Positions 9,846-26,449 of a stretch of 64,000 nucleotides of DNA are shown in pieces. The notes under the pieces are model-generated. The model worked only from the letters and a program-made list of their open reading frames with translations, searched no databases and was not told the origin of the DNA. Made by a program: the position numbers and the translations under genes. The stretch's first letter is position 1. Every line of letters starts with the position of its first letter. Source of the DNA: a virus; the IMG/VR virus record IMGVR_UViG_3300046517_001051, positions 1 to 64,000 of that record; one strand, 5' to 3'.

Positions 9846-10558
9846 AGGCTCCTCGGTATCAGTGAGGTGTCGATCCCAACGGCGTCGTGGCGCTTCACCC
9901 AGAGTTGCGCGAGGCAGCAGGCGACCTCGGTGCCGAAGATCTCGGCGTCGTCGATCACCTTCTCTAGCTCGCCGAGGGTCGCGATGCTGGGGAGCGCCGC
10001 CTTGATCCTCGTCGCCCGAGCGATCAGCTCCCCGGTCGTGACCTGGACCGGGTCGAAGTCGAGGTCTTCCGGGTTGGCCCTCTGGCGCCGTAGGGCTCGT
10101 TCTGCGCCCGCCGGGTCCGAGAGGACCACTCGGCCTATGGTGTAGACGAAGTCGCCTAGCTGAGCCCCCAGCGCCGCGGAGACGAGCCCCTGGAGCCGGC
10201 TTAGGCAGAAGCACTCGACGACCAACTCGACCCAGGCGTCGACGAGGTTGCTCTGGGCGACGAGGCTGAGCGCGCCGTTGGACCGGCAGAAGGTCATCGA
10301 GACGTTCGGGTCCGGCCACGTCACGACGTCGACGTGCTCGAAGGCAGCGACGACCTGCTGGATCGGCGCCTGCCACTCGGGCAGCAGCGACATGAGTTCC
10401 TCCGCCATCGTGACGGACGGGAATCCTCGCGTCCAGAAGTGCGACAGCGGGTTGCCGATGCTGAGACTGGCGCCGACGAGCGGGCCGCGCTTTAGCAGCT
10501 CGCGGAGCAGCTCGCAGTAGACGGGGTCGAACTCGGGATAGCTGAGGCGGAGGGTCAT
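9833..10558 (-). CDS. Thymidylate-synthase-like protein, possibly degenerate
   Basis: 241 residues between primase-helicase and polymerase, overlapping both (TGATG at 10558). A stretch at about 89-150 can be aligned by eye with the dUMP hydroxymethylase at 21881-22903: TFCRSN versus VFCRSND, then similar spacing to an N..V...VL.E segment and a G-D/T-Y/F segment. The catalytic Pro-Cys motif of that enzyme is not found. It may be an inactive thymidylate-synthase-fold relative acting as a regulator or replisome partner. The match is short, so this stays tentative. Confidence 0.4.
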   Translation of the reverse strand: MTLRLSYPEFDPVYCELLRELLKRGPLVGASLSIGNPLSHFWTRGFPSVTMAEELMSLLPEWQAPIQQVVAAFEHVDVVTWPDPNVSMTFCRSNGALSLVAQSNLVDAWVELVVECFCLSRLQGLVSAALGAQLGDFVYTIGRVVLSDPAGAERALRRQRANPEDLDFDPVQVTTGELIARATRIKAALPSIATLGELEKVIDDAEIFGTEVACCLAQLWVKRHDAVGIDTSLIPRSLCCK

Positions 10559-13582: not shown

Positions 13583-14419
13583 CTAGAACGGAGCGGCGCC
13601 GTTGGGCGAGTCGTCGCGCGCGATGCCGTCGGAGTCCCCACCTTCCGCGGCCACAGCCTCCTCGTGCTTCACCGAGAGGTCGCGCGACAGGTAGTCCTTC
13701 AGCAGCTCCTTGTGGAGGGCCTCGGCGATCGGAGCGTGCTCGGGCGAGATCCAGGGGCTGGCCGGAGCGTCGGGGTTGCGGAACCCAGCCACCCAGTACT
13801 CATGGCCCTCGCGGTCCCTCGCCACCTCGGGCGCGAAGGAGAACACGCAGCCGTAGAGCGGGACCTGCTGGCCCTGGATGCGGCGCATCTTGATCGCGTC
13901 GATGAGCGCCTTGCCCTTCCGGAATCCGCCGCGCGAGTAGCTCAGCGTGACGGGCATGCCCTGCAACTCATGCTCGCCGTAGACGACGCAGACGAAGTTG
14001 AGGTGGTGCGAGTTGCGCCTGAGGAACTCGTTCTTGGCGCCATACTTCTCCTCCCAGCGCTTCGGGTCGAGCGCCTTGCTACCGACGAGGCTCGCCGGGT
14101 CGAAGGACTTCGCCTCAATCATCGGGCTGGCCTTGTCCTTCCGGTCGTTCCACGAAATGTACTCGTCGAAGAACAGCAGCGGCACCAGCGAGACCCGCTC
14201 GCCGACCTTGCAGAGGGCCTTCTCACCAGAGACCAGGACGAGGCTACCCTCACCATACTTGGTCTTCAGCTCGCTCGCCGTCATCGCCTGGATGACTGAG
14301 ACGCGGGCGAGCGTCCGGTGGTGGCGCATCGTCGCCAGTGAGTCGTGCTCGTTCTGCTTGCCGATCAAGGCGAGCATGTGCTCTGGCACGGCGCCTACTC
14401 TCGTCAGTTCGTTACTCAT
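13583..14419 (-). CDS. Conserved-type phage protein, possible ssDNA-binding
   Basis: 278 residues from an ATG at 14419, overlapping the previous gene by 8 bp. A mixed beta protein with a block FDEYISWNDRKDKASPMIEA (about 86-105) and LNFVCVVYGEH (about 142-152), a later WVAGF part, and a strongly acidic C-terminal tail (EGGDSDGIARDDSPNGAAPF). Acidic tails are typical of single-stranded DNA-binding proteins, and the position just upstream of primase-helicase fits, but I do not recognise the family with certainty. Confidence 0.5.
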   Translation of the reverse strand: MSNELTRVGAVPEHMLALIGKQNEHDSLATMRHHRTLARVSVIQAMTASELKTKYGEGSLVLVSGEKALCKVGERVSLVPLLFFDEYISWNDRKDKASPMIEAKSFDPASLVGSKALDPKRWEEKYGAKNEFLRRNSHHLNFVCVVYGEHELQGMPVTLSYSRGGFRKGKALIDAIKMRRIQGQQVPLYGCVFSFAPEVARDREGHEYWVAGFRNPDAPASPWISPEHAPIAEALHKELLKDYLSRDLSVKHEEAVAAEGGDSDGIARDDSPNGAAPF

Positions 14420-14960
14420 CGGTCTGATCCTCTTTCTTCTCGTTGAGCCCACGCTTTTTGCGGAACACGGCCACGGCATCGGTGTGGGCGGCTACGATGC
14501 CGGGCGGTGGGTTCTCGCCGCGAGATTGCATCTCGGCGACGAGCTTTTGCATCTCAGTGAAGCTGAAGTCCAGGCGGTTGGTCGCGATGACCTCCTCTGG
14601 GACCTTCAGCCAGCGGAGCAGCTCGACGTACTCACGCGAGCCGCGCTTGGGGAGGCGGGGAATCGTCGTGACCTCGGCGCTGGCGGTGGCCAATTCGCCC
14701 TCCAGCTTGAGGTCCTCGCCGCGCAGGGCATAGGAGCACGCCTCGCCGGCGAGCCGGCGGCCGGCGAGGAGCTGCTTCGCGTCGCAGTTCTTCCTCATGT
14801 CGTCGAACGCATTTCGCATCTCGCGGAGGAGGTAGCCGCAGTCGACAAGGTCGTCGCGCGGCACCTGCTGGACCGCGTTCTGGAACTCGAAGAGCAGCAC
14901 CCCGGTCCGCGTCCAGAGGGCCTTCGCCTCTGAGTACAGCGCCTGGAGGTCCGTCTTCAT
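14412..14960 (-). CDS. Hypothetical protein, replication-associated
   Basis: 182 residues from an ATG at 14960; an upstream ATG at 14999 would overlap the previous gene by 32 bp. Helical, with two Cys in the middle and a charged C-terminus ending EKKEDQTDE. No known domain. It lies between the DUF3820-like gene and the acidic-tailed protein, so a role in DNA metabolism is likely only by position. Confidence 0.5.
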   Translation of the reverse strand: MKTDLQALYSEAKALWTRTGVLLFEFQNAVQQVPRDDLVDCGYLLREMRNAFDDMRKNCDAKQLLAGRRLAGEACSYALRGEDLKLEGELATASAEVTTIPRLPKRGSREYVELLRWLKVPEEVIATNRLDFSFTEMQKLVAEMQSRGENPPPGIVAAHTDAVAVFRKKRGLNEKKEDQTDE

Positions 14961-14967
14961 GACGTGG

Positions 14968-15231
14968 TCACTCGTAGTCTTCGTCGCGTTGTCTTCCATG
15001 TAGCTTCTCAATCTCGCGGTCTTCCTCAGCATCCATCTCTAGGGCGCGGCGCGACTCGTTGATGTAGACGAGGATCGCCGTCTTGTCATAGTTGTCCGGC
15101 ACCAGGTTGTCCCCGAGCCACAGCAGGTAAGCAGCCGGGACGTCGCGCAGGGCCTGCCCTCGGTATTTGCCGAAGGGCATCCGCGTGTCATCGGTGAACC
15201 GCTCCGCGCGAAGGTCGGGGCGCTCAGGCAC
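14968..15231 (-). CDS. DUF3820-like protein
   Basis: 87 residues from a GTG at 15231, overlapping the radical SAM gene by 8 bp. It carries the signature MPFGKYRGQALRDVPAAYLL (about 18-37), typical of the DUF3820 / exonuclease-associated family in phages and bacteria. The C-terminus is an acidic helix. The family has no settled biochemical function; it often accompanies nucleases and DNA repair genes. Confidence 0.7.
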   Translation of the reverse strand: MPERPDLRAERFTDDTRMPFGKYRGQALRDVPAAYLLWLGDNLVPDNYDKTAILVYINESRRALEMDAEEDREIEKLHGRQRDEDYE

Positions 15232-16624
15232 TAGGGTTCCCCCGCGGGTAGACTGCCTGCTTTAGGTCCGCCGTGCGGAGGGCCTTCGCGGACCCAAACA
15301 GCTCGCTGCCGCACCGTGGTTCCCCTTCGTTGTCGTCGGCGCAGTGGAGACAACCCGTCGGCGCGCAGGCCTTCACTTCCTCGAACCGGTCTCCGAGGTT
15401 GGCTCGCGAGAACATCGGGACCTTATGCCCGTGGCACTGGTCACTGGTGATGAAGTCTCGACCGATCGAGATGCCGCGCTTGCTGGTGATCTCGTCGGAG
15501 ATTGGGTCCCTAGCGTACTTGTACTCATAGCACGTTGCATACGTCAGGCCCAGTGCGGCGGCCCGCTGCGAGTAGCGTCGATGCCCCTCCAGCCGGTAAC
15601 TCTCCTCGACGGTCTTCTGACCGCCGATGTTGTCCTTGAAGAGGCGCTCGAACTCACCACCACGCTCGGGGCCGAACCGTTGCTTGATTCGATCAACCAT
15701 GGCCGGCGCCCAACTGAATCCCGCCTCGACGAACTTGACGATGACGTGATCTGCACCCGCTTCCTTCAAGAGGCCAAACAACGTCTCGACGTCGGAGTGA
15801 GTGACCACGCCGGGGACGATCGGGTTGCACTGAATGCTGACATAGATCCCCGCTGCCTTCAGCATCCGGATCTGGTCAAGGTGATCCTTGAGAGGGAGGG
15901 CGCCGGGGCTCAGCTTCTTCCAGTCTTCGGGAGACGGGGTGTTGATTGACTTCTGGGCGTAGCTGTATGGGTTCTGCTTCAGGAGATCGACGGCCCACGA
16001 CGGGTAGGGGAGTCGCGACAGGAAGAAGATCGGCACACCCTGCTCAACGAATGCTTCTGCTCCTTGCTGCGTGTTGTGGTAGACGTCTTCCAGCGGCAAG
16101 AACGGGTCCGTGAAGGACGAGAAGTAGCCGGCTGCCACCGTCTTCAACCGAGACAATTGAGAGCGAACTTGCGCCCCGTAGTGGACAGGGACTGAGACAA
16201 CACCCGAGCCTCGATAGCCGCGGAACCCCGAGTTGACGTAGCAGAAGGCACAGCCCACCGTGCAGTACCCGCCATAGGGCTCGGTCAGGATTGCATCCGT
16301 GAAGCATGGGCGGGGTCGACTCCGCTCGTCGGGGTCCGTCTTGCTCTGGTACCAGCCTTGCAGTGGCTTCGCTGAGTCGATGCGGATGTGAGGGAGGGGC
16401 TCCAGGTAGATCCGGACGTCTTTCTTGTTCTCATCCTCTGCATTGCGGACCATGCCGATGCGGGCGGTGCGCGACTTCATGATGCGGCCCGTCAGCTCGT
16501 CAAACTCTTCGATGATCGGCCCAAGATCGTCCTTCGGCTCTGGCCGCATGAAATACTGGTACGCCTCACGCGCGGGCTCATCGGAGCCCTTCATCCCGTC
16601 TTGCAGCCAAGCAGCATGATCCAT
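15224..16624 (-). CDS. Radical SAM enzyme, likely DNA base hypermodification
   Basis: 466 residues. The radical SAM [4Fe-4S] motif CTVGCAFCYV has C121, C125 and C128 (CX3CX2C). Near the C-terminus a second Cys set (C420, C425, C428, C438) suggests an auxiliary cluster. An N-terminal part of about 100 residues precedes the barrel. It is immediately preceded by a fold-type II PLP enzyme gene. In the thymidine hypermodification pathways of Salmonella phage ViI and Pseudomonas phage M6, a radical SAM enzyme and a PLP enzyme act on an amino acid joined to 5-hydroxymethyluracil in DNA. With the kinase, transferase and dUMP hydroxymethylase nearby, the same type of role is likely. The exact reaction is unknown. 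Confidence 0.75.
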   Translation of the reverse strand: MDHAAWLQDGMKGSDEPAREAYQYFMRPEPKDDLGPIIEEFDELTGRIMKSRTARIGMVRNAEDENKKDVRIYLEPLPHIRIDSAKPLQGWYQSKTDPDERSRPRPCFTDAILTEPYGGYCTVGCAFCYVNSGFRGYRGSGVVSVPVHYGAQVRSQLSRLKTVAAGYFSSFTDPFLPLEDVYHNTQQGAEAFVEQGVPIFFLSRLPYPSWAVDLLKQNPYSYAQKSINTPSPEDWKKLSPGALPLKDHLDQIRMLKAAGIYVSIQCNPIVPGVVTHSDVETLFGLLKEAGADHVIVKFVEAGFSWAPAMVDRIKQRFGPERGGEFERLFKDNIGGQKTVEESYRLEGHRRYSQRAAALGLTYATCYEYKYARDPISDEITSKRGISIGRDFITSDQCHGHKVPMFSRANLGDRFEEVKACAPTGCLHCADDNEGEPRCGSELFGSAKALRTADLKQAVYPRGNPSA

Positions 16625-16626
16625 GG

Positions 16627-17427
16627 TTAGCCTATGTTCCAGAAGAGAGTTGGGACTGAGTCCTGGAACCTAGTGAGGTACCAGCGCAGTGCCTTCAGGT
16701 CGTAGTATTCATTGCACGGAAATGGTGGCGTGATCCCCGCACGAGCAACGTCTTTGTAATCGTAACCTTCATCAACGATGAGTAAATCCAGTGGCGTCCG
16801 CTCAGTTCTCGATTGCTGTCGGAGGTAGCCCTCGACCTCCGTTGCAGAGCGCGAGTAACCGAGATGTATGACGAACTTTGGGGGCTTCTTTGCGCGAACG
16901 AAGCCCATGACGACGCCAGCGGCGATCGTCGCTGAGCTGGCAGGGATCACCACCCTTTCCACAGACAGAGAGGCAGGGACCTCATCCGCCGTCTCCTCGA
17001 CGGATTCAACTAGCTTCAGGGCATTCGGCATCATATAGGCGTTGGGGTCTTCTCGCATGAGCAGCTTGCGGGCGCCATGATAGATCACGCTAGAACGCCC
17101 CGCTGGGATCCCTCGTAGCTCGGCCCCCAGTTGCTGAGCTGCAAGCTGTTGCGGTGGAATGCCGGGAGCAGAATGAGCATAGAGGGGGTAGAAGTTGATG
17201 CATCGCTTCCCCAACCGTTGGCAGGCAAAGGCCACGGCATGGCCGGCTTGTGAGTGTGATGTGTCTAGCACGCCGATGGTCTTCGCGCTCAGCTTCGAGA
17301 GGTGAGCCCAGACCCCGCGAGCCTTCGAGAAAGGCGGCCCCGGCGGAAGACAGGATAGGTCCTCCCTCTTCACCCAGCAGCGAAGGGTCTCACGATGATC
17401 CTCGACCGGCGTGTTGTGCTGGATCAC
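16627..17427 (-). CDS. Fold-type II PLP enzyme (ACC deaminase/TrpB-like)
   Basis: 266 residues from a GTG at 17427 (GTGA). The N-terminus has VKREDLSCLPPGPPFSKARG with K35 as the likely Schiff-base lysine, as in the SxKxR/NKxR motif of fold-type II enzymes. HSQAGHAVAFACQRLGK follows, matching the substrate-binding SxGNxxxA region, and an SATIAAGVVMGF segment may bind phosphate. The protein is shorter than free-standing ACC deaminases (about 330-340 residues). Beside a radical SAM gene it most likely decarboxylates or rearranges the amino-acid moiety on modified thymine, as in the M6/ViI pathways. Confidence 0.7.
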   Translation of the reverse strand: MIQHNTPVEDHRETLRCWVKREDLSCLPPGPPFSKARGVWAHLSKLSAKTIGVLDTSHSQAGHAVAFACQRLGKRCINFYPLYAHSAPGIPPQQLAAQQLGAELRGIPAGRSSVIYHGARKLLMREDPNAYMMPNALKLVESVEETADEVPASLSVERVVIPASSATIAAGVVMGFVRAKKPPKFVIHLGYSRSATEVEGYLRQQSRTERTPLDLLIVDEGYDYKDVARAGITPPFPCNEYYDLKALRWYLTRFQDSVPTLFWNIG

Positions 17428-17780
17428 TGAGAGACCTCATCCTCACAATACTTCGGGTCGAGGAGTCGCAGCTTGTAGTCATTGTGGCGGGCGTCGTAGA
17501 TGAGCGCCTTGACCTGGCCGATGGGGTGAAGCTCGGATGCGACCATGAAGAGCATGACGCAGAGGGCGATGTTGCCGGTGACCGCAATGCAGTCGAGATC
17601 GGGGTCGAAGTCGAGGTCGCCAAGAGTACGCGCCATGTCTGCCATGCACTCCTTCGGGTTGAAGATCCCGCTCGGAAGACGCCGGTTGTCGTCGTAGAGG
17701 AAGACGATCTCGCCGTGCTTCTCCGCCGATGCGACGTCGAACCGGCACTTGGAAACGAAGAAGACTTTGCGTCGCGTCAT
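17424..17780 (-). CDS. Hypothetical protein, 118 aa
   Basis: ATG at 17780 in an ATGA overlap. An alpha/beta protein opening with a basic beta strand (MTRRKVFFVSKCRFD) and containing DFDPDLDCIAVTGNIALCVM, which recalls conserved phage hypotheticals. Four Cys, unpaired. It sits between the SNF2 helicase and the PLP enzyme. Function unknown. Confidence 0.6.
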   Translation of the reverse strand: MTRRKVFFVSKCRFDVASAEKHGEIVFLYDDNRRLPSGIFNPKECMADMARTLGDLDFDPDLDCIAVTGNIALCVMLFMVASELHPIGQVKALIYDARHNDYKLRLLDPKYCEDEVSQ

Positions 17781-19855
17781 GCGGCCTCCGTCAGGTTCAG
17801 CACTGATCTCAGCACCTCTCGTAGGTTGAGGGTCGAAGCAGCCATGTCCAGCTTGCCGTTGACCCGCTTCATGATCTCCTCGTCGATCGTTCCCGGCACG
17901 ATGAGGTCGACGACCTGGACCGGCATGCGCGTGCCGCGCCGGTGGGCTCGATCCTCGGCCTGCGACCGAAGGATTGCGGACCAGTTCGAGCTGAAGAACA
18001 CCTCTAGGTCGCAATAGGTATCTGTCGCACCAGGGTTCCGGGTGTCGTAGCCGAGGAGGTTCAGGCCCTCGGCGGCCGTCTGCGGGTTGCAGACAAGAAC
18101 CTTGAACTCTGGGTCGCAGTTGAAGGCATCGACGAGCTTGTCACGCTCTTGAGCCGAGACACCGCCGAAGTACGTGCCGTGCTTGATGCCGGCCTTCGTT
18201 AGCTCCCCGGAGATGCGCTCGATGTTCTGGATGAAGTTGCACCAGACGATTGTCTTGGCCCGTGGGTCGCGCTCGGGATCCTGGAGCAGCTCCATGAGGG
18301 CATCCACCTTCGGGTTGGTGGGCGCCAGCTCCTCGACTCTCTTCTGCTTCAGGACGTTCCCATCGGGGTCCACCTTGCCGTCGAACGTGATGAACCCGCT
18401 GGTGATCTGGGCGAGGCGGAGGAGCTTCGTGAGGACGTGGCCAATCGTCATCTCGTCGACGACCTTACCCATCGAGTCCTTCAGCTCCAGAGCCAGCTCC
18501 TCGCTGACGCGGCTGTAGACCTTCGCCTGGTGGAGGCTCATCTCGACCTCGACGACGCTCCGCACCTTGTCGGGCAGCATCAGACCGGCCTCCTCCTTCG
18601 TCACGCTGAAGCTCATCCGGGCAAGCCTCTCTTGTAGAAGTGGCACATGCTTCAGCCCAATGAGCTTCGCCACGCCCTGCTGGGCATAATAGTTGTGCTG
18701 CTTCCAGATGCCGTGAAAGTCCTTGAACGCCTTGAACGTCGAGAAGCCGCTGGCTCCTTCCCGAAGGAACTCCAGCTGCGCCCAGAGGTCCATCGGCGTG
18801 TTGCCGATCGGCGAGCCGGTGAGGATCTGCCGGCGCTTCGACGAGTCGCGGAGTGTGATCGCCGTCTTCCAGCGGAGGGAGCTGCGATCCTTGAAGAAGT
18901 GCGACTCGTCGGCGACGGTGATGTCCCACGGCATCTGCTGGAGCCACTCCAGCGTTGTCCTCGCCGAGTCATAGCTGACCACCGCGACGCTGAAGAGGAG
19001 GTCGTCCTCAGGCGCGATTACCTCGGCGATGCGGTTCACGCGGGTCGCCTTGTCGCCGCGGATGACGGCGACCTTGCCGGGCACCGTGGCAAACTTCTCG
19101 AACTCGCGCTGCCAGTTGAGGCGGACCTGCGCTGGGCAGAGCACGAGCACCAGCATCATCCGCCCGCCACCGCGCCGTGGGACGCCGCCCTTCATCTGGC
19201 CCGAGGACAGCAGCTGCGCCTCGGTGCAGACTCGCTGGATGAAACACGCCGTCTTGCCGGTGCCTCGATCCATGAAGAGGGCGAACGCATCAGAGCGGAG
19301 TGCGAGGCAGGTTGCGGTCTGCTGATAGGGGCTCAGGCGAGCCTCGGCCCGCTCCCTCCAGCAGTCGGGGGGCTTCGGGACCGTCCCGCTCAGCTTGAAC
19401 TCCGCGGCTCGCCGGACGGTCTGGTGCCCCAATGCCTCGATGGCGCTGGAGGCGCGGAAGATCTGCTGCGCCGTCTCATTGACGAAGACGAGTTGCTCCC
19501 TAGGCCAGGATCGGTTGATGACCTCCAGGGCAAACGATGTCGCCGGCGTCCGGTAGGTCTCCGACTTCTCGTGATAGCGAACCTCTGGGAGTCGCTTCCA
19601 GAGCTGGCGGGATGCCGCGCTGGCCGAGTCCCAGTGGTCGGCCATCTCTTTCTCGCCGAGCTTGTACGTCTGGCCACCGATCCTCTTGGTTGGCGACGAC
19701 GCGGCGACGAGAGGCTTGATGCGGAGTCCAAGATGGGTCAGCTTCTGCGACGCGGCGACGAAGAGGTAGTCATGCGAGTGGACTGGAATCGGCGAGAGGA
19801 ACTTCTTAGTCACCTCTGACAGATCCGCGTCGTCGTACTCCTCCGCGAAGTCCAT
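17777..19855 (-). CDS. SNF2-family DNA translocase/helicase
   Basis: 692 residues from an ATG at 19855 (TGATG); a GTG one codon earlier gives a GTGA overlap. An N-terminal extension of about 170 residues precedes LSPYQQTATC (Q motif), Walker A MDRGTGKTA (about 195-203), motif Ia LVLCPAQVRLNW, motif II DESH, motif III LTGSPIGNTP, motif V TAAEGLNL and motif VI QAEDRAHRRG. These are the full SF2/SNF2 set, so an active ATP-driven dsDNA translocase is expected. Phage SNF2 proteins are thought to act in replication, recombination or replication-fork restart. The CAF/zinc extras of cellular remodellers are absent. Confidence 0.88.
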   Translation of the reverse strand: MDFAEEYDDADLSEVTKKFLSPIPVHSHDYLFVAASQKLTHLGLRIKPLVAASSPTKRIGGQTYKLGEKEMADHWDSASAASRQLWKRLPEVRYHEKSETYRTPATSFALEVINRSWPREQLVFVNETAQQIFRASSAIEALGHQTVRRAAEFKLSGTVPKPPDCWRERAEARLSPYQQTATCLALRSDAFALFMDRGTGKTACFIQRVCTEAQLLSSGQMKGGVPRRGGGRMMLVLVLCPAQVRLNWQREFEKFATVPGKVAVIRGDKATRVNRIAEVIAPEDDLLFSVAVVSYDSARTTLEWLQQMPWDITVADESHFFKDRSSLRWKTAITLRDSSKRRQILTGSPIGNTPMDLWAQLEFLREGASGFSTFKAFKDFHGIWKQHNYYAQQGVAKLIGLKHVPLLQERLARMSFSVTKEEAGLMLPDKVRSVVEVEMSLHQAKVYSRVSEELALELKDSMGKVVDEMTIGHVLTKLLRLAQITSGFITFDGKVDPDGNVLKQKRVEELAPTNPKVDALMELLQDPERDPRAKTIVWCNFIQNIERISGELTKAGIKHGTYFGGVSAQERDKLVDAFNCDPEFKVLVCNPQTAAEGLNLLGYDTRNPGATDTYCDLEVFFSSNWSAILRSQAEDRAHRRGTRMPVQVVDLIVPGTIDEEIMKRVNGKLDMAASTLNLREVLRSVLNLTEAA

Positions 19856-20193
19856 CACCGGCGTTTGGTCGCCTTCGCGTGGTTCTCGGTGAGGAGCTTC
19901 AGCCATAGGGCCTGGGCAATGAGGTCGTCCTTCCTCGCGGCCTCGATCGTCGCCTCTAGGGCGAGGACTCGCTTCCGGTGGTCCTCGGTCGCGGTCGCGG
20001 CAGCGGCGCGCTGCTCGCGGAAGTGGACGAAGCGCGCCTGCGCCTCCTTCACGGCCTCCAGCAGCTCGGCCTCGCGCTTGTCGCAGGAGGCGGCGTCCGC
20101 CATCTTGTCCCAGTAGTCGCCGCGGTTCTTCAAAAGCCGGAGGCGCTCCTCTAGGGCCGTCACGCCGGGATGCTGTTCAGAGCTAGTCATCAT
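19855..20193 (-). CDS. Coiled-coil hypothetical protein
   Basis: 112 residues from an ATG at 20193 (ATGATG; ACAGGA upstream). Almost entirely helical with long Ala/Glu/Arg heptad-like runs, so likely a coiled coil. First gene after the terminator at 20215-20258. Function unknown. Confidence 0.6.
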   Translation of the reverse strand: MMTSSEQHPGVTALEERLRLLKNRGDYWDKMADAASCDKREAELLEAVKEAQARFVHFREQRAAAATATEDHRKRVLALEATIEAARKDDLIAQALWLKLLTENHAKATKRR

Positions 20194-20214
20194 GCTATTC
20201 CTGTAAAGTGCTGT

Positions 20215-20258
20215 CTACAAAAGCGAGCGGCGACTTTGGTCTCCCTCAGTCGCCGCTC
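20215..20258 (-). terminator. Intrinsic terminator
   Basis: On the minus strand GAGCGGCGACT and AGTCGCCGCTC form a perfect 11-bp stem with a 12-base loop, followed by GCTTTTGT. It lies in the 90-base gap after the gene ending at 20284 and separates it from the 20193 gene. Confidence 0.75.
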
Positions 20259-20283
20259 AACACACCATGCGGCAGTCGATCGG

Positions 20284-20703
20284 CTAGAGCGTCATCGACT
20301 TCTCGAAGTCGCTCATGTCGATGCCGGCCGCCTTCGCGGCTTCGATCGCGGCCTTGGCCGCGTTGGCGAGCTTCATGACCTTCTTCAGGGTCGCGCGCTT
20401 CGCCGGGTCGGCGATCGACAGGCCGCTCTTCAGCTCGCGTTCGAGCCGGTCGGCCAGAGCCAGCTTCTCGTTCGCGGCTTGGCGCAGCTTCGAGATGCGG
20501 TACTCGGCCCAGAGCGTGTCGGAGGCGAACTCCGCGCGGGTGAGCGGCTCGAACTTCGAGCTGTCATAGTTCATCGCGACGACGTCCGAGGACGTCAGGG
20601 CATTCTTGTCGTTCAGGAACTTGCGGTCCACCACGGTGACGAAGCTGGCCCGGGGTGCCTTGGACGTCTTGTCGGTCTTCTCGACGGTCGCTGTTGCTGA
20701 CAT
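20284..20703 (-). CDS. Hypothetical protein, single-gene unit
   Basis: 139 residues, helical, Lys/Ala-rich, with a flexible Thr/Lys start (MSATATVEKTDKTSKAPRAS) and a long Ala/Lys helix at about 95-130. It is flanked by its own control region upstream (20704-20836) and a strong terminator downstream, which suggests separate and perhaps high expression. An abundant DNA-binding or accessory protein is possible, but no domain is recognised. Confidence 0.65.
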   Translation of the reverse strand: MSATATVEKTDKTSKAPRASFVTVVDRKFLNDKNALTSSDVVAMNYDSSKFEPLTRAEFASDTLWAEYRISKLRQAANEKLALADRLERELKSGLSIADPAKRATLKKVMKLANAAKAAIEAAKAAGIDMSDFEKSMTL

Positions 20704-20836
20704 TCTTGTGAGTCTCCTGTATGAGGGAGGTGTTTTGGTGACAGATCAGGTAGGGCGGCGACTATACTGCGGTCGTCGCTGAAGAAAAGAACTTTCGCAG
20801 AAAAGTTTCGGTCCTAAACCTCTTAGCGGTCGGGAT
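20704..20836 (-). promoter_or_regulatory. Promoter region of the 20703 gene
   Basis: 133 non-coding bases. The minus strand contains a near-consensus -10 TATAGT (20761-20766) and, 17-19 bases further upstream, T-rich hexamers (CTTTTC/TTCTTT) as weak -35 candidates. The AAGTTCTTTTCTT block resembles the AAGTTTTTCTTG and AACTTTCTTG blocks in the control regions at 6726 and 40316. A good ribosome site (ACAGGAG) precedes the gene. Confidence 0.55.
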
Positions 20837-21397
20837 CTAGGTCCGCAGCTCATTAGCGTTGGAGAATCCGGCCTTGTGCGCGGGGGCGTCGTGGGCTCCG
20901 TCGCCCCAGCATTCGGCGCAGGTCGCGGTCGTCGCGACGTTCGGCCCGTAGCACAGTAGCGTCGCCGGCTCCACGAGGCAAAGCTGGCATGGCGTCGCGC
21001 TTGTTCCAACAGGGGACTCAAAGCTCACTGGGCGCACCGGGAGGTCCTCGACCTTCGTGATGGAGACGGTCCCTTCCAGGATTTGCTTCGCCTGCGCCTG
21101 GCGAGGAAGCTGACGGGTCTCAACCATCTCGTCCTCGACCAGCATGAGGTAGCGGCGCAGATCGCGCACGTCATCGATCGCCCCCTCGCGGCGCGTGTCG
21201 AGTCGGATCGTCTCGAAGATATCGTTGTGAAAGTTCTTGACTCGATTCTCCAGGCGGTCCCACTTGCGGGCCAGAACAAAAAATGCTCCGCTCCCGCCAC
21301 GCCTCTTCCACGAGTCGCCGTAGGACTTCTCCGCATCCACGAGGCCGGCGACGTCCGCCTCTGCGATCTTCTTCAGCCGTTCTTCGAGTCTAGTCAT
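20837..21397 (-). CDS. Nmad1-like (DUF1599) protein with C-terminal Cys cluster
   Basis: 186 residues. Residues about 20-95 read EKSYGDSWKRRGGSGAFFVL, then ARKWDRLENRV, then DDVRDLRRYLMLVEDEM, which match the nucleotide-modification-associated domain 1 (DUF1599) pattern. A C-terminal part holds CQLC, a middle Cys and CAEC, a likely zinc knuckle. The family was named from its association with phage base-modification genes, and here it stands at the end of exactly such a cluster. Its biochemical role is not established. Confidence 0.7.
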   Translation of the reverse strand: MTRLEERLKKIAEADVAGLVDAEKSYGDSWKRRGGSGAFFVLARKWDRLENRVKNFHNDIFETIRLDTRREGAIDDVRDLRRYLMLVEDEMVETRQLPRQAQAKQILEGTVSITKVEDLPVRPVSFESPVGTSATPCQLCLVEPATLLCYGPNVATTATCAECWGDGAHDAPAHKAGFSNANELRT

Positions 21398-21884
21398 CCG
21401 ACCTGCTCCATGAGTATGAGTTGATGAACATCTTCATTTCGGCGGGCAGCTCCTTCCGACGGAAGTACTGCCAAGCCTTGTCTCGCATCTTCGCGACGTG
21501 CTGATTGCCGAGGGCCAGCTGGTCGTCGCACCACATGATCAGCTCCAGGGAGTCCGCGCAGCCGAGCCAGTTCGCCTCCTCGGTGTCCAGCTCCGGCAAC
21601 TCGTGGGCCTTGTCTGTTGCCTCATCATCCTCGGCCTGGATCATCCCCTCGTCGAGCATCGGATGCTTCCACTTCGCCGGCGCCGGCACGTCGCCGAGCC
21701 AGCGCTCCAGGTGGTCGTGGCATAGCGCCGCCTCGACGAGCGCGACTGACGGCGACGGATGGAGACACAAGAGGATCTGCGCCACGTTGTAGCAGTGGAG
21801 CCCGACCGAGTAGGACCCGTGGTGCGGTGTCGTGTGGCACCGCTCGACGGCGCCCGACTCCCTGCGGTGTTGGATGCTCTTCAC
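21390..21884 (-). CDS. HD-domain nucleotidase, YfbR-like
   Basis: 164 residues from a GTG at 21884 (GTGA). His residues in RCHTTPHHGSYSVG (about 16-28), the HD doublet in LCHDHLERW (H56/D57), and a following GDVPAPAKW match the YfbR-type 5'-deoxynucleotidase branch of HD phosphohydrolases. A dNMP phosphatase next to a dUMP hydroxymethylase could remove dTMP (or dUMP), so that 5-hydroxymethyl-dUMP rather than dTMP feeds DNA synthesis. Substrate choice is inferred. Confidence 0.7.
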   Translation of the reverse strand: MKSIQHRRESGAVERCHTTPHHGSYSVGLHCYNVAQILLCLHPSPSVALVEAALCHDHLERWLGDVPAPAKWKHPMLDEGMIQAEDDEATDKAHELPELDTEEANWLGCADSLELIMWCDDQLALGNQHVAKMRDKAWQYFRRKELPAEMKMFINSYSWSRSDD

Positions 21885-22903
21885 TTCGGCAGCTCGATCT
21901 TCGGGAACTCGTTGGGAGCATCCTTGGCTGCCTTCGTGTCGGCACGCTGCGCCAGCCAACCTTCACAGGCGACCTTCCAGTCACTCTTGGGGTCCGTGTC
22001 TGCGTGCCACTTCGGCTCGCGGGTCTCCCACATCTCGCGCATCGGCTCGGCGATCGTCTTGAAAAAGTGCGACTTCTGGCAGACACCCCCGCACATGAAG
22101 ATCAGCAGCTCGTCGTCCCACTCGGCGAGCGGCAGGTCGACGATCGGCGTGCTGTTGACCTTCCGGTTGTAGGGGTTCTCTGGATAGTCGTATCCGTCGG
22201 AGGAGAGGTCCGCCATCGCGTACATCAGGTTCCAATGTCTCTCGTAGACGTGGGCGTTGTTACTGATCTGCGTGTAGGTCCCGATCGGGATGCCGATGCC
22301 GGCAGCGAGGTACTCCTGGAGGACGCTGAAGTGCACCGCGTTCGCGCCGTAGCAACCCCAGATGAGGTCGTTGCTGCGGCAGAACACCGTCATGTCGAGT
22401 TCCCCGCCTCCGGCGTTGAACAGCGCGTTGAGGTTGCACGGCACATCCTTCGTCCCCGCCTCGACGGCTCGGGGATCCCCCCAACCGTCCCACATCGAGA
22501 GGACCTGTCGGCGGTCGTAGGGGTCGCGGGCCAGAGCCTCGATGATCACTGACAGTTGGTCTCGACCGTTGAAGTGCTTGCGCCACCGGTGGCCGTACGC
22601 GCCGTTGAGCGTGATGCCGTCGTCGCTGTATTCGCGCATCTGCTTCGCGTACTTGGCGACGAAGTCGACGTCTTTCCGGCCCGACAACATCCAGAGGGCT
22701 TCCATCAGGTGGAAGAACGGATTGGCGTTGCGCTCCTCCCACAGCAGGACGCGGTCCTCTGGGCAGGTGTAGACCGTTGTCAGCGGCTCGGGGAGGACCA
22801 GCACGCTGCCGTTCCTAGATCCCCTCTTCTCGCCTTGGTCGCTCATCAGCTGGCACGCGGCCGGTAGGGCGACGTGAACGCATTCTGCTTCGATCAGTTT
22901 CAT
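21881..22903 (-). CDS. dUMP hydroxymethylase (thymidylate synthase family)
   Basis: 340 residues from an ATG at 22903 with ACAGGA upstream. Family landmarks: GAYGHRWRKHF (about 101-111), catalytic Cys in DVPCNL (C156), FCRSND (174-179), and GANAVHFSVL with N188 at the position that reads Asn in uracil-using enzymes and Asp in dCMP hydroxymethylases. A later NNAHVYERH segment completes the site. Thymidylate synthase and dUMP hydroxymethylase share these features; I choose the latter because genes for modifying 5-hydroxymethyluracil in DNA lie directly upstream. If it were a plain thymidylate synthase the pathway would lack its entry step. Confidence 0.8.
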   Translation of the reverse strand: MKLIEAECVHVALPAACQLMSDQGEKRGSRNGSVLVLPEPLTTVYTCPEDRVLLWEERNANPFFHLMEALWMLSGRKDVDFVAKYAKQMREYSDDGITLNGAYGHRWRKHFNGRDQLSVIIEALARDPYDRRQVLSMWDGWGDPRAVEAGTKDVPCNLNALFNAGGGELDMTVFCRSNDLIWGCYGANAVHFSVLQEYLAAGIGIPIGTYTQISNNAHVYERHWNLMYAMADLSSDGYDYPENPYNRKVNSTPIVDLPLAEWDDELLIFMCGGVCQKSHFFKTIAEPMREMWETREPKWHADTDPKSDWKVACEGWLAQRADTKAAKDAPNEFPKIELPK

Positions 22904-22904
22904 G

Positions 22905-23786
22905 TTAGGTTCCTGTGAATTTCGAGCGGGGCCGACCCTCGCCGTTCTTGACTCGGAGGTATTTGTCCGTCTCGCAGAGCGAATGCTCTATGTCCCGAAG
23001 TTCTAGCTTCGGGAACCCCTCGGGAAGCCGGCTAGGGGCCTCCGGGAGGAGGGATCTCATGAGGGATAGAGCTTCCTCCTTCCGGAAGGGAAAGTCGAGC
23101 CTGCGGCCGAGGAGGCGGTTGAGTCCCCGCAGGGCTCCCGGCCCCGCGTTCGCCCACGTCTCGACGTCCGGCGCCCCGACTAGGTAGCGGGTGTGGCGGA
23201 GATCGGTGACGACCTCATACGACATGAACGGCCCCCAGCCGTGATAGTTCAGGAGGCGCTCCCAGCATTCTCGCAGCGACCGCTGCCCGGTCTGATCTAG
23301 GAAGTAGGTCCACAGCTCGCGATCGTCCCAGAGTCGGCCGAGGACGATGCGCGCGATGTATTGCTGTTTGGTCCACGAGTACCAGGCGCAGCTGGAGTCC
23401 GACTCCGCGCGGATCATGTAGGCGCCAGTATAGACTTGGTCGCCGCGAGCCTTGATCCGGTCGAGGACCTGGCCCATGACGTGAGGCTCGAAGCTGTGCA
23501 TACAGGGCCACGAGCCCTCGCTGTTCATCAGCTCGCGCAGCGTCGGTGGGTGGTTGATCGTCCGAGCGATCGCCAGCATGAGCCAGAGGTGTGGGTGCGA
23601 TGGCCACATCTCGCGGATGTTCTCGCGGATCCAGACGGTCACCTTGTCCAGCTCGCGGAAGACGTTGCAGAACCGGTATTGCTGGAGGATCGGGTCCGCC
23701 GTCCAGGGCTTTGGTTGCCAGGCGGCGCGGCGGTCGTAGATCGCCTGGCGCTCCGTCATCCAGTACCAGAGAGGCTCGGCATTCAC
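22905..23786 (-). CDS. 5-hmU DNA kinase helical domain protein
   Basis: 293 residues from a GTG at 23786 (GTGA with the kinase gene). The start reads FWD/FYD-like WYWMTERQAIYDRR, then KPWTADPILQQYRFCNVFRE, the signature of the family first called alpha-glutamyl/putrescinyl thymine pyrophosphorylase clade 1 and later linked to the helical part of the 5-hmdU DNA kinase. ELDKVTVWIREN follows. A LNYHGWGPFMSYEVVTDLR segment with helix-hairpin-helix-like character may bind DNA. Together with the P-loop protein encoded just upstream it would phosphorylate 5-hydroxymethyluracil in DNA. Confidence 0.75.
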   Translation of the reverse strand: MNAEPLWYWMTERQAIYDRRAAWQPKPWTADPILQQYRFCNVFRELDKVTVWIRENIREMWPSHPHLWLMLAIARTINHPPTLRELMNSEGSWPCMHSFEPHVMGQVLDRIKARGDQVYTGAYMIRAESDSSCAWYSWTKQQYIARIVLGRLWDDRELWTYFLDQTGQRSLRECWERLLNYHGWGPFMSYEVVTDLRHTRYLVGAPDVETWANAGPGALRGLNRLLGRRLDFPFRKEEALSLMRSLLPEAPSRLPEGFPKLELRDIEHSLCETDKYLRVKNGEGRPRSKFTGT

Positions 23787-24352
23787 GAGGCCAACCACTT
23801 CTCAATTAGGGCCTTCTCCTCGCCAGTAGGGCCGAGGATGGCGACGCTGATGGAAGGGTGCGCCAATGCGCGCTTCTTCGTCGCCTCGATTGCTCGAACC
23901 TTGTCGCGCACTAGGTCTTCCTTGATCGGCTGCCCGCCGTTGCGCACCTGGATGCGTCGGAGGCACTCCTCGACCGGTGTGTCGAGGTAGGCCCACAGAA
24001 CTCGGCGACCGACCGAGGCCATCTCATCGGCGAATGTCGCCCAGGATCCGAAGACTGTTGAGCAGAGGATTCCCTCGGCGAAGACGTTGCCTGTCCCCAG
24101 CTCGAAGGACCGCCGAATCGCCTCGCGCTGGATGTCGAATGCCCGGATGGTGTCGAGGCCCCCAATCTTCTTCGGATCCTCGGGGTACCGCCCCACGAGG
24201 ACGTCGCCCTTCAGGTTCATCTGACCGACAACCAGGAGCTTGCGGCTCGGGTCGTTGATGAGGTGCAACTCTAGCCCGTTTGGGAAGAACGACCTTGCCA
24301 GTGTCGACTTGCCAGAGCCATTGGTTCCGCGGATGTTGATGAACGCTCTCAT
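23783..24352 (-). CDS. P-loop kinase, 5-hmU DNA kinase catalytic part
   Basis: 189 residues. Walker A GTNGSGKST (9-17), a substrate-binding middle part, a Walker B-like RRVLWAYLDTP (about 115-125) and a lid with several Arg (RRIQVRNGG). This is the general form of nucleoside/nucleotide kinases. Translational coupling to the helical-domain gene (GTGA) suggests the two proteins form one 5-hydroxymethyluracil DNA kinase, which in phages ViI and M6 activates the base with a phosphate/pyrophosphate. A free nucleotide kinase remains an alternative. Confidence 0.7.
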   Translation of the reverse strand: MRAFINIRGTNGSGKSTLARSFFPNGLELHLINDPSRKLLVVGQMNLKGDVLVGRYPEDPKKIGGLDTIRAFDIQREAIRRSFELGTGNVFAEGILCSTVFGSWATFADEMASVGRRVLWAYLDTPVEECLRRIQVRNGGQPIKEDLVRDKVRAIEATKKRALAHPSISVAILGPTGEEKALIEKWLAS

Positions 24353-24756
24353 GACAGCAGCGCCTCGCGGAGGCCCCGGGCCTTCAATGTGATCTCGGTC
24401 ATGACCGCGTCAAACTCTTTTGAATCCCCGGCCAGCCAATTCGGATCTTTGATATCCAGGCGGATCCTGCGCTGAGGGATGGGAAGATTGGAAGACCACA
24501 ACTCTATGTTGTTGCGCCGATCCATGAGTATCATGACGTCGGCTGCTTGGATCATCTCTGCACTCACCTGCTGGCTGCGGTGCTGTCCAAGGTCGATGTC
24601 GTGGACTCGCAGCATCCACCGCCGCACTTTCGCCGCCGCCTTGCGGCCGCCAGGGAGGAAGCCAGCACTGGTGACGGTGAGCGGTGGCCCGCTGATGAGC
24701 GCCGCGACGGCGGGAGAACGGCACACGTTGCCGTGGCACAGGACTAGGACGTGCAA
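24349..24756 (-). CDS. Low-molecular-weight phosphatase-like protein
   Basis: 135 residues from a TTG at 24756 with GGAG upstream. The N-terminus carries the P-loop of LMW protein tyrosine phosphatases, VLCHGNVCRSPA with C7 and R13 (CX5R), and DPNW near residue 100 supplies the general-acid Asp. It should be an active phosphatase-fold enzyme. In a base-modification cluster it might remove a phosphate from an intermediate, or act on host tyrosine phosphate; neither can be decided here. Confidence 0.75.
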   Translation of the reverse strand: MHVLVLCHGNVCRSPAVAALISGPPLTVTSAGFLPGGRKAAAKVRRWMLRVHDIDLGQHRSQQVSAEMIQAADVMILMDRRNNIELWSSNLPIPQRRIRLDIKDPNWLAGDSKEFDAVMTEITLKARGLREALLS

Positions 24757-25640
24757 GCTAGGATCTCCTTGATGTTGGCCTCGACCTGATCACGGCTCAG
24801 CACGCCGTTGTGGCAGGTCTTCCGCCACCCCTGCTCCAGTCGGTGCTGGTAGGGCTCGAACTTCGGGAACTCGGAGTTGGCATGTTCGGCCAGCAGCGCC
24901 ACGATGGGACGGTCTTCCAGGGCAGCAACGAGAAAGTCTCGGCACCAACTGACGCACGTCTTGACGACGCTCGGTCTCAGGGTCCCCGGGAAGTGCCGGA
25001 ACTCGATGGTTGGAACATCCTCCCGGAGGTGTCGGAGGTTCACGGCGCAGCGCTGAGTCAGGTGCCACTGTGGCTTGCCCTCATGGGACCTCGGGCACTC
25101 TGCCGCGAAGAACTCTTCTGGAGTCTCCGCCCCCATCTGAGCCCGCTGACGATCGGCGGTGAGGATCGTCTGGTGGCTCTTGTGGCGCCGCCGGTACCTC
25201 TTCATCGCGCCGTTCATCTCATCACTGGCACTGTAATCCCTACGCTGCGGCATGGGGATCGGCTCGATGAGGGCGAAGACCTCCCGAAGGTGCTTGAAGC
25301 AGTATGCCGAAACTCGTTTCAGCGCTGCAAGGTCGTGCTCGATCGCCGGCACCTTCACGTGGACGTGGAGGTTGCTGCGGTAGTTGACCCGGGCCTCGGG
25401 GTGCATGGCCAGGAACGTCGCGAGGTGCTCCGCCTGCCCATCGGGGGTGTGCGTCGGCGGGGTGTTCAGCTCACCACCAAGGTGGAACACGAGCCCCTTC
25501 GGGTCCACCGCGACGCCGCAGGAGTTCACCATGGTGTAGTCCTTCAGGTCGAGCCCGAAGCCCAGCGGGATGCCGCGCTCGCGGTGCCAATCAACCAGCT
25601 CATGCTCGCAGCCATACGTCCAGTCTTCTGTGCTGATCAC
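24744..25640 (-). CDS. Amidoligase-like enzyme
   Basis: 298 residues from a GTG at 25640 (GTGA overlap). The opening TYGCEHELVDW places an acidic metal-binding pair on the first strand, as in the COOH-NH2 ligase / glutamine-synthetase-like amidoligase fold. GGELNTPP (about 55-62), NLHVHVKVP (about 86-94) and EFRHFPGTL (about 231-239) match the later acidic and His/Arg active-site strands. Such amidoligases were predicted to act in phage alpha-glutamyl/putrescinyl thymine pathways, joining an amine to an amino acid. It stands between the transferase and phosphatase genes of the same cluster. Confidence 0.7.
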   Translation of the reverse strand: MISTEDWTYGCEHELVDWHRERGIPLGFGLDLKDYTMVNSCGVAVDPKGLVFHLGGELNTPPTHTPDGQAEHLATFLAMHPEARVNYRSNLHVHVKVPAIEHDLAALKRVSAYCFKHLREVFALIEPIPMPQRRDYSASDEMNGAMKRYRRRHKSHQTILTADRQRAQMGAETPEEFFAAECPRSHEGKPQWHLTQRCAVNLRHLREDVPTIEFRHFPGTLRPSVVKTCVSWCRDFLVAALEDRPIVALLAEHANSEFPKFEPYQHRLEQGWRKTCHNGVLSRDQVEANIKEILACTS

Positions 25641-26449
25641 CTTGGCATGCCCTCCAAGAATTGCCTCGCCAAGATGCAGTGGGTCGTCCACGGCGCGAGG
25701 CCGTGCCGGATCTCGTCGATGTCCTTCCGCACCTCGTAGTGGCCGCCAACGTGCGACTTCCACTTGCAGAGGATCGTCTCGACCTCCTGCAGTCCGATCG
25801 GACGGTCGTAGTGCGGCGGGGCGAGACGGCCGGCGAAGTACTCAACAAGGGATCGAGCCGTCGAGCCGACGATATCGAGGGTCGCCGGCCGGCCGCGCAT
25901 GTTCCAGAGCAGCACAGCAGCGTCTCGCGGGGCGTCGAACATCAGGACTTCGCTCTCAGCGAAGCTCACCGGGACGCGCAGGACTCGCTCCAGCATGTCG
26001 GCGACCTTGAACCCAATCCACTCGCCGAAGAGGTAGTGGATCTTGACGCGGCTCATCACCTGCGAGCAAGTCGTCGGGCCGGCGAACCCGGCGCAGTAGT
26101 CCGCCATCACCTCTGGGTGATCCGGGTATCGCTTCCGGAGGCTCTCAACGCACCGGACGGCCGCCGTCCCGCGCATGTGCCGGCGCTCGGCCCCTCGGGG
26201 CCACCTAGACCCGCAGGGGCTCAGCTCGTCGTTCCGGGCCGCCGTGGTCGCCCTGGCCCAGAATCCCGCCGCATCCGGCGCCTCCGCAAGCCAGGAGGCC
26301 GTCCCCGCATGATAGAAGGCCCAGTAGCCGAGGAGCCATCTCCGGAGGGTCGCCGGCGGCCAGTCGACCCGGGAGAGGGCGAGGTACACGGGGTCGAGGT
26401 CCTCGGTGTCGAGGAGGGCCGTCCCGAAGTCTTCGATGGTCTGGGTCAT
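25637..26449 (-). CDS. Amino acid:DNA transferase-like (aGPT-Pplase) protein
   Basis: 270 residues, ATG at 26449 (ATGA). Features: DLDPVYLALSRV (about 17-28), LRRWLLGYWAFYHAGTASWL (35-54), AERRHMRG (about 88-95), and GEWIGFKVADMLERVL (about 142-157) with helix-hairpin-helix-like character. This is the pattern of the families named alpha-glutamyl/putrescinyl thymine pyrophosphorylases, later shown in ViI/M6-type phages to transfer an amino acid onto pyrophosphorylated 5-hydroxymethyluracil in DNA. I infer the same step here. It is the first gene of the modification cluster in transcription order. Confidence 0.75.
   Translation of the reverse strand: MTQTIEDFGTALLDTEDLDPVYLALSRVDWPPATLRRWLLGYWAFYHAGTASWLAEAPDAAGFWARATTAARNDELSPCGSRWPRGAERRHMRGTAAVRCVESLRKRYPDHPEVMADYCAGFAGPTTCSQVMSRVKIHYLFGEWIGFKVADMLERVLRVPVSFAESEVLMFDAPRDAAVLLWNMRGRPATLDIVGSTARSLVEYFAGRLAPPHYDRPIGLQEVETILCKWKSHVGGHYEVRKDIDEIRHGLAPWTTHCILARQFLEGMPR

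Follow-up and report, generated by a model that had tools for sequence, protein, structure and literature searches.

A candidate amide-forming cap in an M6-type thymidine hypermodification locus of an IMG/VR virus

Gene content of the locus

The stretch of DNA analysed here (the window) comprises 64,000 bases out of the 66,403-base IMG/VR virus record IMGVR_UViG_3300046517_001051 and carries a locus for thymidine hypermodification (Table 1). The pathway genes, all of them on the - strand, extend from position 26449 down to 15224, and most overlap their neighbours at the ends. From 26449 downward, an amino acid:DNA transferase (ADDT) is followed by an amidoligase, a low-molecular-weight (LMW) phosphatase (LMWP), the P-loop part and the helical part of a 5-hydroxymethyldeoxyuridine (5-hmdU) DNA kinase, an enzyme of the thymidylate synthase (TS) family, an HD nucleotidase and the 20837 gene. 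Downstream of the latter lie a helicase stretch, a pyridoxal phosphate (PLP) enzyme and a radical S-adenosylmethionine (SAM) enzyme (rSAM). Non-pathway genes inside the same stretch are an SNF2-type helicase (17777-19906) and genes similar to Pam3 gp32 and gp34. We consider it reasonably likely that this is an M6-type thymidine hypermodification operon with an amide-forming cap, giving N-acylated 5-(2-aminoethyl)deoxyuridine (5-NedU). The extra ligase and phosphatase probably attach a further group to the amine, which would yield a DNA base not yet described.

An initial annotation, made from the letters alone, had named the genes of such a locus. All are present, and Pfam, PHROG and M6 homology agree on them, the identity of the 20837 gene excepted; the proposed pathway is likewise borne out gene by gene against phages M6 and PaMx11. 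The curated Pfam cut-offs are passed by TS, HMUDK_hel, HMUDK_HMUD1, ADDT, LMWPc, the YfbR-like HD family and PALP, and the HMUDK_hel and ADDT profiles match the two stretches (22905-23786 and 25637-26449) at which, for the initial annotation, a failure of the profiles would have refuted the locus. The radical SAM enzyme reaches only 19.7 bits in Pfam; its cluster cysteines 121, 125 and 128 (CxxxCxxC) are invariant. The reading frame of the HD nucleotidase overlaps TS, and its start codon is uncertain.

The ADDT matches the PDB entry 8z2m, 'Glycinyltransferase' (E 7.8e-76). With a glycinyltransferase as its relative of solved structure, the window enzyme is predicted to place glycine on activated 5-hmdU in DNA. 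By homology, the radical SAM enzyme is a predicted isomerase of the N-glycyl adduct, and the PLP enzyme is predicted to decarboxylate the base-linked amino acid.

Table 1. Pathway genes of the window, from position 26449 downward
Feature	Position	Strand	Basis
ADDT (amino acid:DNA transferase)	25637..26449	-	Pfam ADDT E 2e-18; 47.7% to M6 gp051
Amidoligase, GS/GCS carboxylate-amine ligase superfamily, 298 aa	24744..25640	-	Amidoligase_2, fold model, invariant residues
LMW phosphatase (LMWP)	24349..24756	-	LMWPc E 6.2e-11
5-hmdU DNA kinase, P-loop part	23783..24352	-	HMUDK_HMUD1 E 5.5e-17; 38.7% to M6 gp054
5-hmdU DNA kinase, helical part	22905..23798	-	HMUDK_hel E 1.3e-56; 53% to M6 gp055
TS-family enzyme, predicted dUMP hydroxymethyltransferase	21881..22903	-	Thymidylat_synt E 4.5e-22; phrog_5131 E 4e-103; 46% to M6 gp058
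YfbR-like HD 5'-deoxynucleotidase	21390..21959	-	PF12917 E 3.3e-8; 44% to M6 gp059 over 134 aa
Conserved TS/HD neighbour, remote Nmad1 possible	20837..21397	-	47% to Pam3_54 over 103 aa
Fold-type II PLP enzyme	16627..17427	-	PALP E 1.8e-13; phrog_7093 E 2e-60; 44% to M6 gp052
Radical SAM enzyme	15224..16624	-	phrog_9252 E 2.6e-218; 65% to M6 gp053

Comparison with known hypermodification systems

The corresponding block of Pseudomonas phage M6 (NC_007809) holds ADDT (gp051, 48% identical to the window protein), the PLP enzyme (gp052, 44%), the radical SAM enzyme (gp053, 65%), the kinase (gp054, 39%), its helical domain (gp055, 53%), TS (gp058, 46%) and HD (gp059, 44%); the identities of the radical SAM and PLP enzymes span the full length. 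According to Lee et al., the route reportedly passes through a glycine adduct, which the radical SAM enzyme isomerises and the PLP enzyme decarboxylates, and the PaMx11 product is said to be acetylated (5-aminomethyl-dU, then N-acetyl). M6 DNA contains 5-NedU (PMC6449724; PMC11946847). Since the M6 set is complete in the window, 5-NedU is the expected intermediate here. The two loci differ in that M6 has neither amidoligase nor LMWP, whereas the window has both, between ADDT and kinase. The PLP and radical SAM genes, located between ADDT and kinase in M6, follow TS in the window at a distance of about 4 kb, on the far side of the helicase. By the tested features, the window system would be a member of the M6-type pathways plus an added cap module.

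In Pseudomonas phage PaMx11 the gene order is ADDT, flavin adenine dinucleotide (FAD) lyase, GNAT acetyltransferase, kinase, helical domain, TS and HD, and gp47 of this phage matches PDB 8z2o, a flavin-dependent lyase. PaMx11 and the window share the frame of ADDT, kinase, helical domain, TS and HD, and in both a gene for amide formation lies a little ahead of the kinase. In the window, however, amidoligase and LMWP hold the GNAT position, and the radical SAM and PLP enzymes replace the lyase. No match to DAO (flavin-dependent lyase) or to Acetyltransf_1 (GNAT cap) was found at E<=1 anywhere in the 66,403-base record. The window system is not of PaMx11 type, FAD lyase and GNAT being absent from the record.

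Phage Simon, a sewage phage with a GenBank genome record, has the order TS, Nmad5, helical domain, kinase, LMWP, amidoligase, FAD oxidoreductase and ADDT. Simon and the surveyed loci L009, L010, L011 and L041 carry the closest amidoligases (about 44-52% identity), with LMWP adjoining the 5-hmdU kinase as in the window. They differ from it in drawing the amine from a FAD lyase, so that their capped base is expected to derive from 5-aminomethyl-dU and not from 5-NedU.

The amidoligase and the LMW phosphatase

The amidoligase-like enzyme of the initial annotation holds as to its fold, with one correction in detail, its start. The match to Amidoligase_2 (PF12224) reaches 21.4 bits, slightly under the curated cut-off of 22. 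The start is GTG at 25640, overlapping the ADDT stop (GTGA), which gives 298 aa instead of the 339 aa of the 24744-25763 reading frame. Since a PDB search with the amidoligase profile returned chance hits only, a fold search was used. The AlphaFold2 model has a pLDDT of 96.6; the top Foldseek matches in the PDB are YbdK, GshF, plant GCL (glutamate-cysteine ligase) and glutamine synthetases (GS), and all 50 matches listed are proteins of the GS/GCS superfamily. Residues G10, E12, E14, D17, G42, A44, D46, G55, E57, H94, R197, T211, E213, R215 and T275 are invariant in 33/33 sequences, and the ExE, H, R and ExR among them are what we take to be the set expected of GS-type catalysis. The model thus supports a glutamine-synthetase/GCS ligase fold with conserved catalytic residues. 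A phosphoramidate cycle of the McsB/YwlE kind (GS-fold kinase plus LMWP) was considered and rejected, no guanidino kinase being among the 50 fold matches listed.

In the phosphatase, C7, R13, S14 and D104 are invariant (26/26), which keeps the CX5R(S) loop and the general acid Asp. LMWP is present in 41/51 amidoligase loci and in 0/64 loci lacking the amidoligase, some loci in these counts being one contig fetched twice. Clustering of the neighbouring genes revealed none specific to amidoligase loci except LMWP and no dedicated gene for acid supply; the acid is therefore probably a host metabolite. A natural in-frame amidoligase-LMWP fusion (domains 251-551 and 556-699) was observed at L018:9236-11350, the same gene as L186:10576-12690, in a locus of the radical SAM and PLP type. 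A role of LMWP as phosphatase of phosphorylated 5-hmdU is disfavoured: locus L020 has LMWP without HMUDK_hel or ADDT, and the enzyme is therefore not simply a 5-hmdU phosphate phosphatase.

Exclusivity of the proposed cap genes

A single-sequence search of viral contigs with the amidoligase found nothing, so alignment-based searches were needed. GenBank phages contained two relatives only, in Simon (47%) and Vibrio phage 2.275.O (28%). Profile scans of IMG/VR yielded 33 amidoligase, 80 ADDT and 80 radical SAM loci, which were annotated with profiles built in this analysis; for tallies of contigs across the survey tables, each contig or record was counted once. Among the 44 amidoligase contigs or records, 23 have a FAD lyase, nine (including the window) radical SAM and PLP enzymes, two a PLP enzyme with a distant radical SAM, six a class II glutamine amidotransferase and two QueF; the last two are short fragments (8.5 and 6.1 kb). 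An amine-supplying module is thus found near the amidoligase in 42/44 contigs, the fragments being the remainder.

Amidoligase and LMWP occupy the slot of the PaMx11 acetyltransferase in Simon and in many IMG/VR contigs, and phages combining the amidoligase with a FAD lyase mostly show the order ADDT, FAD lyase, amidoligase, LMWP, kinase, helical domain, TS and HD. The two genes never coincide: no contig has both an acetyltransferase (n=16) and an amidoligase (n=44). The 69 ADDT loci (with ADDT, kinase and helical domain) include 14 with GNAT, 16 with amidoligase and none with both. Restricting the count to the 36 ADDT loci with a FAD lyase gives 14 with GNAT, 15 with amidoligase, seven with neither and again none with both (Fisher p 5.6e-5). 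From the radical SAM side, six of 63 loci carry an amidoligase, two GNAT and none both, and 41 have ADDT and PLP with no cap. The ADDT tree requires at least seven switches between GNAT and amidoligase. The initial annotation had suggested a product that may differ from the known ones; the occupation of the acetyltransferase slot by a pair that never occurs with an acetyltransferase supports it.

Radical SAM and PLP enzymes stand together with an acetyltransferase in loci L122 and L158, whose predicted product is N-acetyl-5-NedU; we know of no characterised system with this combination.

Exchange of modules around the amidoligase

In the amidoligase tree, loci with radical SAM and PLP are scattered among those with FAD lyase, with five changes, at least four of them forced by supported branches. 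The window ADDT groups with the uncapped radical SAM and PLP loci L050 and L054 (SH-aLRT 92), while the closest relatives of the window amidoligase are of the FAD type (L009, 51%). Such a pattern would suit a cassette that had joined a pathway of the M6 kind.

Nested within a supported FAD clade of the amidoligase tree is also the deazaguanine locus L020. This locus reads QueF, a small gene, amidoligase, LMWP, a further small gene and a QueE-like radical SAM (L020:9234-12280); QueF thus lies two genes upstream of the amidoligase and the QueE-like gene downstream, and QueC is found elsewhere on the contig. Neither HMUDK_hel nor ADDT was found on this 109-kb contig. QueF also follows the amidoligase gene directly in Vibrio phage 2.275.O. 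In tested phages, QueF-type proteins led to dPreQ1, a 7-aminomethyl base, although QueF and QueF-L are hard to separate (PMC6884629). No TGT was found when the deazaguanine contigs were searched for it, which carries little weight as phage DpdA is divergent. From its gene content, L020 is a candidate for an amide-capped 7-deazaguanine. The feature shared by the amidoligase backgrounds is, as predicted from their genes, a primary amine on the base.

Amidoligase and LMWP accompany a class II glutamine amidotransferase in L030, L031, L033, L034, L036 and L037. ADDT was matched in L030, L034, L036 and L037, and no FAD lyase or radical SAM/PLP pair was seen in the six annotated loci; in these loci the base might be loaded with ammonia. 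A distant radical SAM with PLP and amidoligase was observed in L029 (8023-10906) and in L042, on contigs that gave no ADDT and no HMUDK_hel match.

Proposed pathway and alternatives

By homology to characterised pathways, the TS homologue would make 5-hydroxymethyl-dUMP, which is polymerised into DNA, the two-part kinase would activate 5-hmdU in DNA, ADDT would swap the activated group for N-linked glycine, and the radical SAM isomerase and PLP decarboxylase would convert the adduct to 5-NedU. We infer that the amidoligase then spends ATP to activate a small acid at its carboxylate and couples this acid to the primary amine. The acid is probably a metabolite common in the host, for example an amino acid, and the product would be an N-acylated, perhaps aminoacylated, 5-NedU. 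What the PaMx11 acetyltransferase does on 5-aminomethyl-dU with acetyl-CoA would here fall to an ATP-driven ligase. LMWP may assist this step, and our guess is that it could dephosphorylate the ligated group or the acid donor. An amine-bearing base in place of thymine, as the initial annotation had it, agrees with the amine-making enzyme set, but as the final product it is probably wrong or incomplete if the amine is amide-capped. Longer side chains protect better against restriction than does the aminoethyl group of M6 (PMC6449724), and blocking more restriction enzymes is the likely purpose of such a cap.

The nearest biochemical precedent for the proposed ligation is CmoY of Synechococcus phage S-B43, an ATP-dependent glycine ligase acting on 5-carboxymethyl-C (PMC12783734). 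Both reactions would use ATP to form an amide bond with a modified base of DNA. However, CmoY is an asparagine-synthetase homologue, and its base carries the acid while the amine is free; the reaction predicted for the window is the mirror image, with the amine on the base. Our literature search, which did not extend to the main gene-permutation paper, found no paper tying amidoligases to thymine modification.

Several points weigh against an acylated 5-NedU. The PDB matches from Foldseek lack strength (best E 1.5e-3, TM about 0.3-0.4), and the carboxylate and amine partners of the amidoligase are read from genomic context. The counts of cap exclusivity are not phylogenetically independent. 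LMWP is missing from 10/51 amidoligase loci, several radical SAM and PLP loci among them, and is therefore not essential to the ligase. In the six glutamine amidotransferase loci, ammonia could be the amine and a base-linked carboxylate the acid.

Extending this last point, the amidoligase might use ammonia or another amine to amidate a carboxylate on the base, either that of the linked glycine or that of the C-glycyl radical SAM product, and so give a carboxamide base. Besides the amidotransferases next to the amidoligase, CmoY, although of another ligase family, acts in such a direction (PMC12783734). We nevertheless regard a carboxamide as unlikely, since 32/44 amidoligase contigs have a FAD lyase or radical SAM and PLP enzymes, which destroy the glycine carboxylate, the amidoligase takes the place that an amine acetyltransferase holds elsewhere, and it is also found in the two QueF loci, in which an aminomethyl group is expected and ADDT is lacking. 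It appears still less probable that the window makes plain 5-NedU as M6 does, with amidoligase and LMWP serving a host metabolite, protein tagging or phosphorylated-base editing. Radical SAM and PLP without a cap do occur in 22/69 surveyed ADDT loci, and protein phosphatases are among the members of the LMW phosphatase family. Against a plain 5-NedU stand the position of the pair, the swap pattern, the association with base-amine modules across four chemical backgrounds and the LMWP of L020, whose record has neither ADDT nor the helical domain of the 5-hmdU kinase. Least probable of all is a free small molecule (dipeptide or amide) made by the amidoligase and loaded on DNA by ADDT: as a matter of family knowledge, amidoligases and GCS-like enzymes often make free metabolites and ADDT homologues vary in the amino acid loaded, but the amidoligase records L008 and L020 lack both ADDT and the kinase helical domain, the strict exclusion with a base-capping acetyltransferase would be left unexplained, and the window ADDT groups with plain M6-type ADDTs.

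Returning to the acylated amine, we tentatively extend it to a broader proposal, which we hold with somewhat less than even confidence: that amidoligase and LMWP form a portable cassette capping primary amines of DNA bases whatever the amine source or the base, covering 5-aminoethyl-U, 5-aminomethyl-U and preQ1-type 7-deazaguanine, and yielding in the window N-acyl- or N-aminoacyl-5-(2-aminoethyl)deoxyuridine, an undescribed base. If true, the acetylated base is not the only amide-capped one in phage DNA but is joined by a class of others, whose amide comes from an ATP-driven ligase and not from acetyl-CoA, and base hypermodification is built from exchangeable modules, an amine maker and a cap. 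With the enzyme pair one could then also couple acids of choice to amine-modified DNA.

Other genes of the window

The protein of the 20837 gene had been called Nmad1-like, and this identity could not be established: a Pfam scan of the protein gave no hit, PF07659 included, and among the scanned relatives one alone touches PF07659, at a sub-threshold E of 0.034. Its relative Pam3_54 is deposited as 'nucleotide modification'. The family is present in about 20 surveyed loci, conserved beside TS/HD, and carries the motif SYGDSWKxRGG; the window copy (20837-21397) has an extra Cys-rich tail. A remote Nmad1 is possible but unproven.

A DNA-level search against GenBank phages gave no match. At the protein level, the primase-helicase at 10558-13449 is 48% identical to that of an uncultured Manatee Spring phage (MW202657), and apart from that phage its closest relatives come from Microbacterium and Cutibacterium phages, so that in this replication gene the window does not resemble M6.

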